A stretch of 64,000 bases of DNA, from NCBI GenBank assembly GCA_910575255.1, contig CAJTEM010000011.1, positions 62,001 through 126,000 of the forward strand. Direction: 5' to 3'. Each line of letters begins with the position of its first letter. Position 1 is the stretch's first letter. This DNA is from Lachnospiraceae bacterium. Lineage in GTDB: Bacteria; Bacillota; Clostridia; Lachnospirales; Lachnospiraceae. The notes under the pieces are model-generated. The model was not told the DNA's origin, made no database searches, and saw nothing but the letters and a program-made list of their open reading frames with translations. Shown one piece after another: positions 1 to 59,982 of this stretch. Both the position numbers and the translations under genes were made by a program.

Positions 1-62
1 CTGCGGCCCTCACCTTGTCTTAAGGTGTACCTTCTGGAATTTCACCCCACGTTACTGTTCAC
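1..62. repeat. Small hairpin relative of the foldback repeat family, cut by the window edge
   Basis: A 6-bp hairpin (CACCTT at 11-16, AAGGTG at 22-27) is followed by GTACCTTCTGGA, the same flank seen beside the long foldback repeats and beside the small hairpin at 9012. The motif GTTACTGTTCAC at 51-62 is the left outer boundary motif of the next, full-size copy. It appears to be a minimal family member directly abutting a full copy. Its left part may lie outside the window. Confidence 0.55.
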
Positions 63-68
63 AGGCAA

Positions 69-371
69 TGTCAGTTAGTTAAGAAAATGAGAAACTCAGC
101 CAGGGAAGAGGGGGAAGTCCCCGCCGGAAAGAGTCTGCGGATTTTGACTTTGCAGAGATTTAGAAGTCCTTGGATTTTTGAGTTTTGCGTTGAAACGAAA
201 ATTCACACTGTCTGAGCGGAGCGAGTTTGTGAATTTTCGTTTCGTTTTTAGCAAAAATCAGAAATCTTAGGAATTCTTAATCTCGAAACCGGAAAAATCC
301 GCAGACTCTTTCCGGCGGGGACTTCCCCCTTTTCCCTGGCGTACCTTTTGGAACAGCTTAACTAACCGACA
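69..371 (-). repeat. Long foldback repeat, copy A (inverted orientation)
   Basis: The 303-bp unit runs from TGTCAGTTAGTTAA (69-82) to TTAACTAACCGACA (358-371). The arms 100-145 and 294-339 are reverse complements over 46 bp with one mismatch, a G opposite T. The inner part carries the family core, including a second inverted repeat (ends AAACGAAAATTCACA and TGTGAATTTTCGTTT around the loop near 215). Outer boundary motifs GTTACTGTTCAC (51-62) and GTGAACAGTAAC (378-389) frame it. The GTACC side lies on the right, so this copy is inverted relative to the other five. No coding capacity is seen. Confidence 0.9.
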
Positions 372-710
372 TTGGGTGTGAACAGTAACCACCTCACCCC
401 GTGAAATGTAAAATTAATATTTTGGACTTGTTAAGGGCTGGTTTTCGTGTTAAGATGAGAGAGCGTCCCGTGACAGGGAAGGGGCGATGGCTGATATTAT
501 GATTCACCGTGATTCAGACGGTATGATCTTGAGGGATTCTCTCGGAATGATTCCATGGAAGTAACAGAAAAGGTAACGGTTCGGATAGATCTGCGTGTTC
601 ACCGCGCGAAAACGTGGTGGTCACCAGAAAAGAGGATAAGCCGAAAATATGAAACGCAGGGGTGAGAACTGCAGCACATAAAAGGATTCCTATAAAAGGG
701 CAGGTATCAG
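372..710. other. Intergenic stretch with no convincing gene
   Basis: After the boundary motif of copy A there are about 320 bases without a supported gene. Two tiny overlapping reading frames exist: 25 codons from ATG 487, preceded by GGGAAGGGG, and about 36 codons from ATG 554. Neither resembles a family I know, so I do not call them. No tRNA, terminator or clear SigmaA promoter was seen. Confidence 0.5.
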
Positions 711-8036: not shown

Positions 8037-8062
8037 CCGGCGGGATCTCCCGCCGGTTTTTT
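8037..8062 (+). terminator. Rho-independent terminator after the FliD-like gene
   Basis: A perfect 9-bp stem CCGGCGGGA/TCCCGCCGG (8037-8045 and 8048-8056) with a TC loop is followed by six T. It lies 25 bases after the stop codon. Confidence 0.93.
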
Positions 8063-8335
8063 CTATCATAGGAAAGTGCGTCCTAAGATAGAAAACGCTC
8101 CGCGGGGATGCGCACTCCGCGCAGAGGAAGATGGCTGCTGTCGCAGCCGCGCTCCGGCGCGAGAGTCCGGCTTGCCGGACTCTTTGTTCTATCATAGGAA
8201 AGTGCGTCCTAAGATAGAAAACGCTCCGCGGGGATGCGCACTCCGCGCAGAGGAAGATGGCTGCTGTCGCAGCCGCGCTCCGGCGCGAGAGTCCGGCTTG
8301 CCGGACTCTTTGTTCTATCATAGGAAAGTGCGTCC
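8061..8335. repeat. 126-bp tandem repeat, two full copies plus the start of a third
   Basis: Units begin with TTCTATCATAGGAAAGTGCG at 8061, 8187 and 8313. The first two are essentially identical over 126 bp; the third diverges after about 22 bp (CCCACGATACAAAAAACGC). Each unit contains a short inverted repeat (GAGTCCGGCTTGCCGGACTC) and is rich in CG dinucleotides. Because 126 is a multiple of three, both strands show repetitive open frames, but these look like by-products. It begins inside the T-run of the preceding terminator. Confidence 0.9.
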
Positions 8336-8402
8336 CACGATACAAAAAACGCTCCGCAAGGATCGCAACACGGTGTGCGAATAAGGTACGTCTTCGCCGG
8401 AG

Positions 8403-8591
8403 GCATTTCTGATCGTCTGCGGTGATGAAGTGGACGAGGCGGTGAAAATTATGATGAGTTTGTTTGATGAAGAGCAGATAATGAAATCGTTTATCAAGAG
8501 TGAACGCTATGAAGCGGCACAGGATAAGGCAAAAGAAAATTCCAGAGCTGGTATTTGCCGGCCTAGTACAGCATTGCTTAAATTCCGGTGA
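8403..8591 (+). pseudogene. C-terminal fragment of an Rpn/PD-(D/E)XK nuclease-transposase-like gene
   Basis: An open frame without a start codon encodes a segment containing VDEAVKIMMSLFDEEQIM and KSFIKSERYEAAQDKAKE. This resembles the helical C-terminal tail of the Rpn/YhgA-like recombination-promoting nuclease (transposase-like) proteins common in Lachnospiraceae. It runs into the inverted-repeat element at 8563 and stops there. Only the tail is left, so it is a decayed remnant. The family match rests on memory of such tails and is tentative. Confidence 0.4.
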
Positions 8592-8822
8592 ATCAATTGC
8601 TTGATATCGGTGTCATCTGTGCGTCTGCAAAGCGACGGCGTAGTGGCGCCTACGTCTAGTACTGCATTGCGAAAATAACGGTGAATCCAGTGCTTGATAT
8701 TTTCGTCATCTGTGCGTCTGCAAAGCGACGGCGCAGCGGTGCCTACGTCTAGCTTTGCAGGCGTGCAGAGGGCGCTGATAGCAGGTGATTGATTCACCGG
8801 AATTTAGGCAATGCTGTACTAG
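8563..8822. repeat. 260-bp MITE-like element with 36-bp terminal inverted repeats
   Basis: The left end CTAGTACAGCATTGCTTAAA (8563 on) and the right end (8787-8822, finishing AATGCTGTACTAG) are reverse complements over 36 bp with about one mismatch. Inside, two 93-bp direct repeats start at 8563 and 8656, and a truncated third begins at 8749 (CTAG CTTTGCAGG). There is no transposase inside. It could be a non-autonomous mobile element or an array of smaller insertions. Confidence 0.8.
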
Positions 8823-8985
8823 TATAACCCGTTTTAAATAACCTTCCGTTTCGCCAGTCTGCTTTCCCGATAGCACAGAGGGAAAATGCTCAACGTAGCC
8901 CCACTACGCCTCCGCTTTTCCCTCTGCACTCTCGGAAAAGTATCCTTGCCGAAACAGAAAGGTATTTAAAACGGGTTATACTAGT
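8818..8985. repeat. 168-bp imperfect palindrome, sharing ACTAGT with the preceding element
   Basis: ACTAGTATAACCCGTTTTAA at 8818 is mirrored by TTAAAACGGGTTATACTAGT ending at 8985. The inverted repeat continues inward through CTTTCCCGATAGCACAGAGG against CCTCTGCACTCTCGGAAAAG. The whole unit is a near-complete foldback with a small apical loop (about 8895-8915). It touches the 8563 element, and both use the hexamer ACTAGT (8818-8823) as a terminus. Confidence 0.8.
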
Positions 8986-9011
8986 AAGAATAATAGGGAA
9001 CGGGATGTTCA

Positions 9012-23586: not shown

Positions 23587-24903
23587 ATGGGCGCTAGCAG
23601 CTTTAACGAAATGGAGCTGGATGCCATAGGCGAGATTATGAATATCAGCCTCGGGGCATCAGCGACAGCAGTTTCTACCATGCTGGGGACAAAAGTGAAT
23701 ATCACAACGCCCGTGGTGCTGGTCCAGACGAAAGAACAATTTGAATTCAAACGTCTGGAACCGGCTATTGGTGTTGAGATCAGTTATGTGGAAGGTTTGG
23801 AAGGCAAGAACATCATGATGTTCCGCAAGGAGGATATCCGGATTATTGTGAGCACCATGATGGGCGGCGACATACCGGAAGCGGAATTCGAGATGGATGA
23901 GCTGTATGTCAGTGCGATCTGTGAAGTGATGAATCAGATGATGGGGTCCTCGGCTACGGCGCTGTCGGAGTTTTTGGGCACTATTGTAAATATATCGACG
24001 CCGAAATCTTTTGAGATCGGTGAGCCGGAGGAGTTTAAAAACAAGTATTTTGTTGAAGCGGACGGAATGGTAGTGGTGCGTTTCCGGCTGGAGATTGAAG
24101 ATAAGCTTAACAGTGAGTTTATGAACATCATGCCGAGGAAGCTGGCCAAGAGGCTGCTCGAGCCATTTGCGGATTCTCTTGGCTTATCGGCGGAGGCGGC
24201 AGCGCCGGAACCGGAGCCGGTAGTGCAGCCGGAACCGGTAGTGCAGCCGGAACCGCAGATGCCGGAACCGGAACCGGTAATGCAGCCGGAGCCGGTAATG
24301 CAGGCAGCGCCGGAGCCGCAGATACAGGCAGAGCCCGCACCTGCACCCGCAGTCCCGCCGGTACAGCCAATGGCGCAGCCGGTACAGCCCATGGCCCAGG
24401 CGGCCGATCCGGCTATGCAGGGGATGCAGCAGCCGTATTATCCCTATCCTTCTGCAGGGATGGATCCCATGATGATTCAGCTCCTCAACCAGATGCAGCA
24501 GACGCAGATGCAGATGATGGAAATGATGAAGAATACCAGGACGGCGTCCTCTGCAGAGTCGTCCGCATCCAATGCGGGCGGTTCGATTATCCGGCCTTTG
24601 GCGTCACCGCAGATTCAGGACGGCGCCGGAGAGGGAGAAGAGGACAAGACCAACCAGGAGATGCTGATGAAGGTGCCTCTGGAGGTATCCGTGGAGATCG
24701 GGAGGACCAAGCGGCTGGTTAAGGATATTCTGGAGTTTACCCAGGGAACCCTGGTCGTTTTGGATAAGATGGCAGGAGAACAGGTGGATCTGTTCGTGAA
24801 CGGCCAGTGCATCGCCAAGGGAGATATCGTGGTGGTGGAAGATAACTTTGGCATCCGTGTTACTGAGATTGTGACAAGGGAACTGAATCCGGAAAGCTTA
24901 TAA
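23587..24903 (+). CDS. fliY: Flagellar motor switch phosphatase FliY (FliN/FliY)
   Basis: Switch protein that also removes phosphate from CheY-P in Firmicutes. The 438-residue protein has an N-terminal CheC-like domain with two active-site stretches (EIMNISLGASATAVSTML at about 15-32 and AICEVMNQMMGSSATALSEF at about 108-127), a long Pro/Glu/Gln/Val linker with PEPVVQ-type repeats (about 203-275), a Met/Gln-rich segment, and a C-terminal FliN/SpoA domain (KVPLEVSVEIGRTKRLVKDI). It is longer than usual because of the linker. It lies one base before fliO. Confidence 0.93.
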   Translation: MGASSFNEMELDAIGEIMNISLGASATAVSTMLGTKVNITTPVVLVQTKEQFEFKRLEPAIGVEISYVEGLEGKNIMMFRKEDIRIIVSTMMGGDIPEAEFEMDELYVSAICEVMNQMMGSSATALSEFLGTIVNISTPKSFEIGEPEEFKNKYFVEADGMVVVRFRLEIEDKLNSEFMNIMPRKLAKRLLEPFADSLGLSAEAAAPEPEPVVQPEPVVQPEPQMPEPEPVMQPEPVMQAAPEPQIQAEPAPAPAVPPVQPMAQPVQPMAQAADPAMQGMQQPYYPYPSAGMDPMMIQLLNQMQQTQMQMMEMMKNTRTASSAESSASNAGGSIIRPLASPQIQDGAGEGEEDKTNQEMLMKVPLEVSVEIGRTKRLVKDILEFTQGTLVVLDKMAGEQVDLFVNGQCIAKGDIVVVEDNFGIRVTEIVTRELNPESL

Positions 24904-35900: not shown

Positions 35901-36153
35901 TGTCGGTTAGTTAAGCGGTTCCAAGAGGTACGCCAAGGAAAAGGGGAAAGAATTCACCGGAAATGGTCTGCGGATTTTTCCGGTTTCGAGATTAAGAATT
36001 CCTAAAATCCCTGATTTTTGCTAAGAGCGAAACGAAAAATTCAGGGATTTAAGGACTTCTAAATCTCTGCAAAGTCAAAATCCGCAGACCATTTCCGGTG
36101 GATTCTTTCCCCTTTTCCTTGGCTACGTTTCTCGTTTCCTTAACTAACTGACA
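35901..36153 (+). repeat. Long foldback repeat, copy B (shortened core)
   Basis: It runs from TGTCGGTTAGTTAA (35901) to TTAACTAACTGACA (36153). The 47-bp arms (35932-35978 and about 36077-36123) pair with one T-G mismatch. The inner CCACAAACTCGCTTCGCTC module and its mirror are deleted, leaving a shorter core. The sequence between TGACAT at 36149 and TGACAT at 36192 is an additional 37-bp insert with a near-palindrome (GTCAAAAGGTCTTTTGAC), then the boundary GTGAACAGTAAC (36203-36214). The region 35788-36262 holds no gene. Confidence 0.9.
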
Positions 36154-42478: not shown

Positions 42479-42537
42479 TAGGCACTATTGCCGAATGAGA
42501 GGGAAATAAGGTATAATTGTTACTGTTCACGGGTCAA

Positions 42538-42883
42538 TGTCATTTAGTTAAGTTTTACCAGAAGGTACGCCTTGGAAAAGAGGTGGGAGGCGGCCAGAAA
42601 TGGTCTGCTGCTTTTTCCGGTTTCGAGATTCACAGAAAACCTGCCACTGGCAGCTTTTCTGCGTGCTAAGGCAAAGAATTCCTAAAATCCCTGATTTTTG
42701 CTAAAAGCGAAACAAAAATCCCCAAACTCGCTTCGCTCAGACAGAGTGGATTTTTGTTTCAACGCAAAACTCAGGAATTTAAGGACTTCTAAATCTCTGC
42801 AAAGTCAAAATCTGCAGACTATTTCTGGCCGCCTCCCACCTCTTTTCCAAGGCTGAATATTCTCAGAATTTAACTAAATGACA
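42538..42883 (+). repeat. Long foldback repeat, copy C (with a nested hairpin insert)
   Basis: It runs from TGTCATTTAGTTAA (42538) to TTAACTAAATGACA (42883). The arms starting GCCTTGGAAAAGAGGTGGGA (42570) pair with the 3' arm ending at 42853; the outer ~40 bp are perfect, with mismatches only near the inner end. The full core with the CTCGCTTCGCTCAGAC apex is present. Copy C alone carries an extra ~45-bp stretch with its own hairpin AGAAAACCTGCC/GGCAGCTTTTCT (about 42635-42663). It is preceded by the boundary GTTACTGTTCAC (42519-42530). Confidence 0.92.
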
Positions 42884-43145
42884 TTGGTTCACGGGTTCCG
42901 GGAGGTACGCCAGGGAAGAGGGGAGAAACGCGGCCGGAAATGGTCTGCTGTTTTTCCGGTTTCGAGATCAAGAATTCCTAAAATCCACAAACTCGCTTCT
43001 CTCAGACAGTGTGGATTTTCGTTTCAACGCAAAACTCAGTGATTCAAGGACTTCTGAATCTTTGCAAAGTCAAAAGCAGCAGACCATTTCCGGCCGCGTT
43101 TCTCCCCTCTTCCCTGGCTGTGTTTCTCGTTTCCTTAACTAACTA
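42880..43145 (+). repeat. Long foldback repeat, copy D (tandem with copy C)
   Basis: Head-to-tail with copy C, sharing TGACATTG at the junction. The arms 42909-42955 and 43072-43118 pair over 47 bp with a single T-G mismatch. Their sequence (GCCAGGGAAGAGGGGAGAAA) differs from copy C's arms. The apex module is present, but the first AATCCCTGATTTTTG half is missing. It ends in TTAACTAACTATC, then TTGACA. Confidence 0.92.
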
Positions 43146-43156
43146 TCTCTTGACAG

Positions 43157-46790: not shown

Positions 46791-47034
46791 GCCTTGGAAC
46801 AAGGGGAGGGCTGTAGCCGGAAATGGTCTGCAGATGTTTCCGGTTTCGAGATTAAGAATTCCTAAAATCCCTGATTTTTGTTAAAGGCAAAACGAAAATC
46901 CACAAACTCGCTTCGCTCAAACAGTGTGGATTTTCGTTTTAACACAAAATTCAGGGATTTAAGGACTTCTAAATCTCTGCAAAGTCAACATCTGCAGACC
47001 ATTTCCGGCTACAGCTCTCCCCTTGTTCCAAGGC
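46791..47034 (+). repeat. Long foldback repeat, copy E
   Basis: The arms GCCTTGGAACAAGGGGAGGG (46791 on, 48 bp) and the 3' arm ending 47034 pair with one G-T mismatch. The full core, with apex CTCGCTTCGCTCAAACAG and the perfect inner inverted repeat, lies between. The preceding GGGAGGTAC gives the usual flank. A second smaller hairpin follows at 47104. Confidence 0.92.
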
Positions 47035-53249: not shown

Positions 53250-53451
53250 TGTCGGTTAGTTAAGTTTTGCCGAAAGGTACGCCTTGGAAAAAGAGGGGAG
53301 AGGCGCTCCGAAATGGTCTGCTGTTTTTTCCGGTTTCGGGATCAAGAAGTCCTAAAATCCCTGCAAAGTCAAAAACAGCAGACCATTTCGGAGCGCTTCT
53401 CCCCTTTTTTTCCAAGGCTGAGTATTCTTAAAGCTAAACAAAAAATGACAT
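53250..53451 (+). repeat. Long foldback repeat, copy F (shortest core)
   Basis: It runs from TGTCGGTTAGTTAA (53250) to AAAATGACAT. The arms GCCTTGGAAAAAGAGGGGAG (53281 on, about 48 bp) pair with the 3' arm ending 53418 with two G-T mismatches. The inner core is reduced to about 45 bases (CCGGTTTCGGGATCAAGAAG then CCCTGCAAAGTC), so this copy is almost a pure hairpin. Confidence 0.88.
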
Positions 53452-59157: not shown

Positions 59158-59982
59158 TTACAGCTTACCGCCGGAGGTTGCGATACCTTCTACGAACTGC
59201 TTCTGGAAGATCAGATACAGAACGATCATCGGGATACAAGCCAGCAGAGAGGCTGCCATCAGCTGCGGATAGTTGTTGGTGTACTGACCCTGCATCTTAG
59301 CCAGAGCAGCTGACAGCGGCATTACGTCACGGTTACAGATCAGAGGCCACATCAGATCCTTGTAGGCAAACACTGCAGTGAAGATACCCAGCGCCACCAT
59401 GGATGACTGAGTCAGGGGAGCCATGATCCACAGGAAGGTCTGGCCGATATTACAGCCGTCCAGGCGGGCAGCTTCTTCCAGATCTCTGGGAAGTCCCATG
59501 TAAGCCTGGCGCAGCAGGAAGGTACCGAAAGCAGTAACCAGACCCGGGAATACCAGGGCGAAGATGGTGTTTAACTGTCCCATCTTGCTGACCATCAGAT
59601 ACTGGGGAATAATGTAAATCTGCCCCGGCACCATCATCTGAAACAGGATCAGGGAAAACATGAAATTCTTGCCTTTGAACTCAAGTCTGGCAAAGGCATA
59701 TCCGGCAAGGGTAGCGGTCAGAACCGCGGCGATGACACGGCCTGCGATCAGCAGCAGGGTGTTTAAATACAGGATCGGGAAATTCATGTTGTTGATTACT
59801 GTGGTAAAGTTCTCCGCCCGCCATACGCTCGGGAAAATGACGAAAGGATTGACTGATGTAGCTTCTGTCATTGATTTAAATGCAGTCAGGGCCATCCAGA
59901 CAAACGGGACCAGCATGGTAATGGATACCAGAATCAGGATGAAATGAATGAGAGCTGACATAAGTTTTGCTTTTTGTTCCAT
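59158..59982 (-). CDS. Carbohydrate ABC transporter permease (MalG/CUT1 type)
   Basis: A 274-residue membrane protein with about six membrane segments and the EAA loop EEAARLDGCNIGQTFLWIM, the contact to the ATPase. With the binding protein and the other permease it forms a CUT1 sugar importer. No ATPase gene is in the window, so a shared MsmK-type ATPase elsewhere is likely. The substrate is presumably an alpha-galactoside given the nearby galactosidase; this is inference. Confidence 0.93.
   Translation of the reverse strand: MEQKAKLMSALIHFILILVSITMLVPFVWMALTAFKSMTEATSVNPFVIFPSVWRAENFTTVINNMNFPILYLNTLLLIAGRVIAAVLTATLAGYAFARLEFKGKNFMFSLILFQMMVPGQIYIIPQYLMVSKMGQLNTIFALVFPGLVTAFGTFLLRQAYMGLPRDLEEAARLDGCNIGQTFLWIMAPLTQSSMVALGIFTAVFAYKDLMWPLICNRDVMPLSAALAKMQGQYTNNYPQLMAASLLACIPMIVLYLIFQKQFVEGIATSGGKL

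Follow-up and report, generated by a model that had tools for sequence, protein, structure and literature searches.

The question raised by this locus is how the two arms of a foldback repeat can differ from one copy to the next and yet match each other almost perfectly within each copy. The window, i.e., the whole stretch of 64,000 nucleotides that was analysed (C11:62001-126000), belongs to a 5.14-Mb, 106-contig assembly of a Lachnospiraceae bacterium. Six long copies of the repeat had been reported in the initial annotation of this DNA, and all of them are present, at or near the places where it had put them. Their features are as follows:

51-389, minus strand: copy A, a complete element, with terminal repeats at 51-83 and 357-389, outer arms at 99-145 and 294-340 and the core in the middle.
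43-50 (CACCCCAC) and 390-397 (CACCTCAC): imperfect 8-bp target duplication of copy A (7/8 match by eye).
35901-36153, plus strand: copy B, with outer arms at 35932-35978 and 36077-36123 and a shortened core.
42519-42895, plus strand: copy C, with its left end GTTACTGTTCACGGG at 42519 and outer arms at 42569-42615 and 42807-42853.
42880-43145, plus strand: copy D, joined to the right end of copy C, with arms at 42909-42955 and 43072-43118 (98% complementary) and a shortened core.
46791-47034, plus strand: copy E, with arms at 46791-46837 and 46988-47034 and a full-length core.
46838-46987, plus strand: core of copy E, with a conserved asymmetric internal loop (TTCCGGTTTC opposite TGCAAAGTCA), covarying stems and an apical AAACTCGCTTCGCTCAAACA.
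53250-53451, plus strand: copy F, with arms at 53281-53328 and 53371-53418 and a core that has shrunk to a short loop.

No open reading frame of more than 55 aa overlaps positions 42510-43150. The hairpin is beyond chance, as copy E folds at -157.1 kcal/mol versus -57.9 (sd 4.6) for 200 shuffles. Six mismatches in total are carried by copies A, B, D, E and F in their outer 47 columns, every one of them a G opposite a T on the plus strand, as had been noticed initially; those of copy C, in the same columns, are one G.T and two pyrimidine mismatches. Copy A is oriented opposite to the other five, and its G.T mismatch is an A.C relative to the core. The core of copy C carries an additional palindromic insert at about 42631-42673 (around CTGCCACTGGCAG), also found in L003 and L004, and a different small palindrome (GCGCCACTGGCGC type) is seen elsewhere in the core of L034 and L072.

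Other repeats are present in the window. Positions 8057-8347 hold a tandem 126-bp unit starting with TTTKTTCTATCATAGGAAAGTGCGTCC: two full copies, which share 99% identity, plus the beginning of a third. At 8563-8986 lies a further palindromic repeat complex (CTAGTACAGCATTGC..., TACTAGTATAACCCG...), and pieces of it recur next to hairpin copies elsewhere in the genome. Finally, a GCCGGAACCGG-type tandem repeat with a spacing of 18-21 occurs at 24186-24317, within a long open reading frame.

The observation is real and larger than the window shows. At least 93 copies are found in the genome by core anchors alone: a search with two such anchors, in which arm complementarity was not used, gave 94 distinct copies, 93 of them with readable arms. 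L100:+1134, a short match, was left out of the 93, and identical sequences were counted once, hence the absence of L002. A search by loop pattern gave 146 matches versus 92 in the control, the pattern being nearly its own mirror image, and the copy number was therefore taken from the core anchors. From the outside inwards, the 8-bp target duplication is followed by the terminal inverted repeat (GTTACTGTTCACnnnCAATGTCAGTTAGTTAAG) and by a stretch that differs between the two sides, with AGGTACGC on one and GGCTGWGTTTCGCG on the other; then come the arm, an internal loop and the core. The internal loop is 10 by 10 and largely non-complementary; the core, of about 150 nt, has imperfect stems and the loop AAACTCGCTTCGCTCAGACA. 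The arms have 43, 45, 46 or 47 columns in 5, 37, 37 and 14 copies, respectively (n=93), and despite these varying lengths only 7 gap letters occur across the 93 arm pairs. There are 86 distinct 5' arms among the 93 copies. The arm pair is perfect in 27/93, and 54 of the 64 pairs carrying any mismatch have one to three.

The usual pair of flanks is found in 83/93 copies; six were not callable, three were called symmetric (L061 as a symmetric-flank copy was a false call) and one, L090, has its core inverted relative to the flanks, as template switching or recombination could produce. Since the other two of the three symmetric calls, L048 and L074, join flanks of different subtypes and have mismatched outer arms, they look like recombinants and nothing was drawn from them. 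Another copy, L089:1136-1272, is a hybrid whose arms do not match and which has the 5' half-core on either side; it is probably a recombinant of two inverted copies. A second family, with 19 copies or more, has both the apical loop and the GGTTTCG / CTGCAAA internal loop in common with this one. Among the matches listed, the core pattern occurs in records named as uncultured Lachnospiraceae and in one that bears the label Clostridiaceae.

Arms that differ by copy yet match themselves, as claimed from six copies, are borne out genome-wide by the 93, beyond chance. Differences between copies that affect both arms (two-sided) rise with core distance, and those that affect one arm (one-sided) do not. 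Among 941 pairs of copies that have arms of the same length and belong to the 78 with a standard core (5/93 gapped copies were left out), two-sided differences increase from 1.8 per pair at a core distance below 0.02 (19 pairs) to 20.0 at 0.13-0.2 (103 pairs), and one-sided differences stay flat at 2.0-2.8. In the same way, a gapped alignment of 60 less similar copies gives 4.2 to 17.9 two-sided and 2.1-3.0 one-sided differences (1769/1770 pairs). These 60 copies, drawn from 70 standard gap-free copies by removal of near duplicates, were also used for covariation and for the tree. Over their 91 pairs, 664 cells are two-sided, whereas shuffling (500 times) leaves 169 (sd 13) and sliding the partner by 1-3 columns leaves no more than 105; the latter comparison favours the structure, which was derived from these very sequences, over the slid versions. 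In total, 97.9% of the cells are paired and 63/91 pairs show two-sided change. Arms drifting independently without compensatory changes had been named as the outcome that would speak against the pattern; the covariation just described shows the opposite.

On a tree built from the 5' arm and the core, parsimony, which charged each double change two steps, counts 201 double changes from one Watson-Crick (WC) pair to another in 38 arm columns of the 60 copies (53 internal and 148 terminal; 94/201 are transversions). The same columns show 43 changes from a WC pair to a mismatch (8 internal, 35 terminal) and 13 from a mismatch to a WC pair. Two-sided changes are mostly transitions between the closest copies (1.6 vs 0.3) and mostly transversions in the last distance bin (11.8 of 20.0); the excess of transversions at larger distances may be due to saturation. 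One-sided arm mismatches are mostly transitions (69/84).

Mismatches number 72 at the inner 8 positions of the arms, 46 at the middle 28 and 34 at the outer 9 (10 of the latter at one position), which makes the rate per position higher toward both arm ends. As for the outer mismatches, 45/68 are private and 23/68 are common to at least two copies (3395 arm pairs). About half of the shared ones occur in arms that resemble each other closely and seem to be inherited; the others, in unlike arms, look recurrent, and 17/23 are at positions 7 or 36-42. The private rate per nt is 0.0066 for one-sided arm changes versus 0.0025-0.0041 for core substitutions; as the arm rate is not below the core rate, it lends no support to in-place correction since the last move. 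Concerning the core itself, its loops are conserved and its stems covary. Columns 1, 2, 4, 5 and 7 of the internal loop are paired with their partners in 0/78 copies, i.e., the loop is not symmetrised. Single core mismatches are symmetrised in none of the 78 copies at columns 16/133 and 26/123, in 4 at 21/128 and in 9 at 37/112.

Relatives of the same genus behave similarly: their 22 copies (1/23 was left out) show 10.3 two-sided and 2.2 one-sided differences (22 pairs), and 0/22 have perfect arms, mainly because of fixed mismatches at inner positions. By DNA search, the element was found in 8/24 genomes of the genus and in 0/17 outside it. A covariance model of the core (R1), built from 23 copies, matched at E <= 0.001 in 18/160 genomes of the family, i.e., the own one and those of 17 other genera. 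With at most 18 candidates scored per genome, more than one match was obtained in 12 of these 17 genera, and the weakest genera have a best E of 1e-6 to 1e-8. From 13 of the 17 genera, 51 loci were retained, with both anchors in 18/51. The loop ACTCG...CTCARACA lies near the centre of 49/51 loci (at most two substitutions; 40 exact) versus 0/1020 plain shuffles, a count that is a check and not an independent proof since the motif is contained in the core model. Among the loci compared, no insertion was the same in two genomes, and hence no case of symmetric change in place was observed; L027 and L192, considered as an orthologous insertion, appear independent and have opposite orientations.

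One of these genomes, G085, is a single contig of 6.9 Mb, given as 99% complete and 8% contaminated. Its nine copies have arms of 60-73 columns (about 70 bp) including the terminal repeat, into which they run straight, with 0-3 mismatches each. Between copies (36 gapped pairs), 19.8 of 67 columns (about 30%) show two-sided and 2.1 one-sided change, and the cores are 92% identical. Because G085 is a single contig, a broken assembly is unlikely to be the cause of the self-matching arms. An exact 8-bp duplication flanks 6/9 copies when shifts of up to 4 bases are allowed. On G085:C1, 9/10 core-model copies, a small sample, run with the replication fork if the terminus lies near the middle (dnaA is at 355).

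The element is a non-autonomous, MITE-like transposon whose ends resemble those of a resident IS66-family element. Its terminal inverted repeat GTTACTGTTCACnnnCAATGTCA, with at most 3 mismatches, occurs at 99 places versus 0 for the reversed pattern, and the ends are degenerate in many copies. Of 19 facing end pairs listed, the one at window position 59331 is due to chance, and L086, L147 and L150 correspond to another repeat or to core-less elements. In the own genome, an exact 8-bp target duplication is found at 2/19 end pairs (L009, L088) and a 7/8 one, by eye, at window copy A, L078, L091 and L136; the remaining pairs have none or a partial one. Furthermore, an element nearly identical to copy C is found at a second genomic site (L002) with different flanks and the identical three arm mismatches, and the L081 site is empty in one relative (L191). 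A different repeat with the same GTTACTGTTCACAGG end is present at L086:830-973, so that a single end type may be common to two or more non-autonomous families. At L150:480-635, the interior of a terminal-repeat element is a short foldback of its own arm, which might be the remnant of a template-switch deletion.

The own genome also carries, at L159:653-2465, an IS66-family element of 1812 bp with one 494-aa ORF, ends GTAACAGTTCAGCCTT and a perfect 8-bp duplication (AATTTTTT). The 5' arms of two G085 copies (L253 and L267) open with the same 16 bases as these ends. The usual end of the window family, GTTACTGTTCAC, matches the L159 end at 9/12 positions, and two copies of the window's genome (C12:94, L068) have the ends GTAACAGTTCAG. 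Full-length end identity between the hairpin element and the IS66-family element was not found, and no such ends occur at 27 other IS66 loci, some of which overlap or are cut by contig ends. Judging from these ends, the element may be mobilised by an IS66-type transposase. Its core may be required for mobility. When applied to 25 IS66 loci, the core model gave one weak match (E 0.022).

Other candidate partners were rejected. The resident IS66 matches L156-L158 are devoid of the ends (L157 has a stop and L158 is partial), related ends being present in L159 alone. Five contigs starting near a terminal repeat, examined for an autonomous partner, break inside the hairpin elements themselves. Three near-identical transposase copies of G085 do not have such ends; the one scanned has an IS6-like best NCBIfam match, below the cut-off.

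How, then, are the arms kept equal? Probably by the copying of one arm from the other within the molecule, for which template switching during replication appears the most likely route. A point mutation in one arm would create a mismatch, and this mismatch would soon be erased as the molecule copies one of its arms from the other; in this process, some mutations would pass to both arms and others would be reverted. The nascent strand could, in the likeliest scheme, fold back on the hairpin during replication and switch template, as in quasipalindrome correction. If one arm is copied from the other, the arms drift in concert and stay complementary. Homogenisation would not reach the loops of the core, the inner base of the arms or the outer flanks, as they do not offer matched sequence on both sides for the switch to start and to return; the same requirement may account for the higher number of mismatches at both arm ends. 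Copies with an altered core would presumably not spread, which would be a second reason for the core loops to stay unhomogenised. Among the closest copies, two-sided changes are about as frequent as one-sided ones and few mismatches are inherited, which arm-to-arm copying explains. Several observations argue against this explanation: a number of core mismatches are rarely or never symmetrised although a switch could be expected to erase them, which would require selection or tract limits, and distant two-sided changes are mostly transversions whereas one-sided ones are mostly transitions. In addition, the private rate in the arms is not below that of the core, the relatives have no perfect arm pair, symmetric change was not observed in place and no transposase is linked to the element.

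The copying could instead take place within transposition, a foldback or snap-back single-strand intermediate being filled in from one arm so that the arms are reset on moving; we consider this appreciably less probable than copying at replication. It would agree with one-sided mismatches that resemble decay after insertion (mostly private, at a rate not below that of the core), with the G085 arms that continue into terminal repeats flanked by exact duplications and with core mismatches kept in nearly all copies. However, about a third of the outer mismatches (23/68) are shared by at least two copies and around half of these look inherited. Furthermore, the copy C element has identical sets of three arm mismatches at its two sites, and the arms were therefore not reset in at least one duplication. 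To our knowledge, IS66-type transposition has no foldback copying step, which also counts against this possibility.

A further proposal, more speculative than the previous one, concerns the core. It might be the working part of an element that multiplies via a folded single strand: the fold would be recognised, the asymmetric loops would set strand and direction, and foldback synthesis would copy one arm onto the other. If so, the element would rewrite its own arms and keep its fold; we know of no description of such a mode of bacterial DNA transposition, which would then be widespread in Lachnospiraceae.

It is unlikely that selection alone is responsible, i.e., that a perfectly paired fold, as single-stranded DNA or in a mobility complex, is needed to move and that double changes are two successive mutations. 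Conserved loops with covarying stems are the classic pattern of a selected fold, and the fold is matched in other genera. Nevertheless, two-sided changes are as frequent as one-sided ones already at a core distance below 2% (1.8 vs 2.0), and the transversions among the double changes (94/201) are unable to pass through G.T. According to our own two-state-model estimate, the two-step route would reach about 0.2% of the neutral rate and thus be too slow by a factor of hundreds; its input, a frequency of shared mismatches of about 0.7% of arm pairs (23/3395), is an upper bound, since about half of them look recurrent.

The weakest explanation is a functional RNA hairpin selected at each genomic copy via G-U intermediates. 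If RNA pairing were selected, G.T should be in excess on the transcribed strand. The six G.T mismatches of copies A, B, D, E and F, the stable fold and the conserved loops point in this direction, as do core columns 8/141, which are T opposite G, pairable in RNA, in 78/78 copies. Genome-wide, however, the G-opposite-T pattern fails, with 30 G.T, 39 A.C and 15 other mismatches (93 copies, beyond the inner 7 arm positions). The counts are 28 G.T versus 45 A.C in the core stems (78 copies), 11 versus 11 in the same-genus relatives (22 copies) and 134 versus 154 at 49 loci of 13 other genera, internal loops counted in. The ratio varies by genus, for instance 11 versus 1 in G121, which would agree with RNA pairing, and 4 versus 14 in G076. 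The slight A.C excess is equivalent to a slight G.U excess on the opposite strand, a weak indication as it is small, comes from copies that are not independent and would be mimicked by strand-biased mutation. By a crude ORF rule, the copies have no orientation bias relative to neighbouring genes (70 same versus 73 opposite gene sides, 43 undecided), which speaks against a cis-acting role in host messages. In the window, no Rfam family matches at gathering score, the hits by E-value below this threshold being nine microRNA models and one plastid UTR model. With no excess of G.T over A.C, the equality of the arms is not attributable to RNA pairing, and an RNA hairpin is very improbable. Thus, of the two explanations offered in the initial annotation, copying that keeps the arms symmetric is favoured by the two-sided statistics, the tree, the relatives and G085, and selection of an RNA hairpin is not.

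These results have consequences beyond the element. Stem covariation is widely taken as the best evidence for a selected RNA structure; here, strong covariation (63/91 pairs two-sided) comes with a mismatch spectrum that does not support RNA, and such repeats can therefore mislead covariation searches. With about a hundred copies in one genome, together with further genera, it would be possible to measure in nature how fast the arms are copied, over what tract length and in which direction. The core, matched across many genera and devoid of ORF, is apparently an undescribed element whose function is testable. The family had initially been presented as undescribed. This appears to stand for the element, since no Rfam family matches at gathering score in the window and, among the open-access papers listed as matches, none describes it in its title or the start of its abstract; nor was an open-access paper found that combines IS66, MITE and Lachnospiraceae. 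It does not stand for the homogenisation of inverted-repeat arms, which is already described.

Among known systems, the integron attC site was considered because it acts in the form of a folded single strand that bears conserved bulges. REPINs consist of two short REP hairpins and are moved by RAYT, unlike the element studied here, which is a single long hairpin with IS66-like ends. They nonetheless resemble it as dispersed palindromic mobile elements of bacteria (PMC3116915). Bacterial IS-derived MITEs are, like this element, short and multi-copy with IS-related terminal inverted repeats (PMC9769881, PMC3189936); it differs from them by its conserved asymmetric folded core and by its arms, nearly matched within copies and diverged between them.

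Regarding arm homogenisation, the perfecting of imperfect inverted repeats by arm-to-arm copying is reported as quasipalindrome correction (PMC7202029, PMC3820800). Template switching has been proposed to cause compensatory changes and stem maintenance (PMC8794818) and, in another study, to homogenise arms and invert spacers (PMC8604942). Compared with quasipalindrome correction, the arms are here 43-73 bp long, and the record is spread over about a hundred copies of a single mobile element, dispersed through one genome, plus further genera. Hairpin elements of sponge mitochondria are dispersed too, and their stems are reported to differ by a few complementary substitutions; they have stems of 15-18 bp, and the available part of the paper makes no mention of terminal repeats or target duplications (PMC2800124). 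The coding palindromes of Nematomorpha mitochondria are long perfect inverted repeats whose arms are in concerted evolution, with paired, two-sided substitution between two individuals (PMC6649704). As described there, those palindromes are coding and belong to animal mitochondria, whereas the arms analysed here are those of a dispersed and mobile bacterial family.
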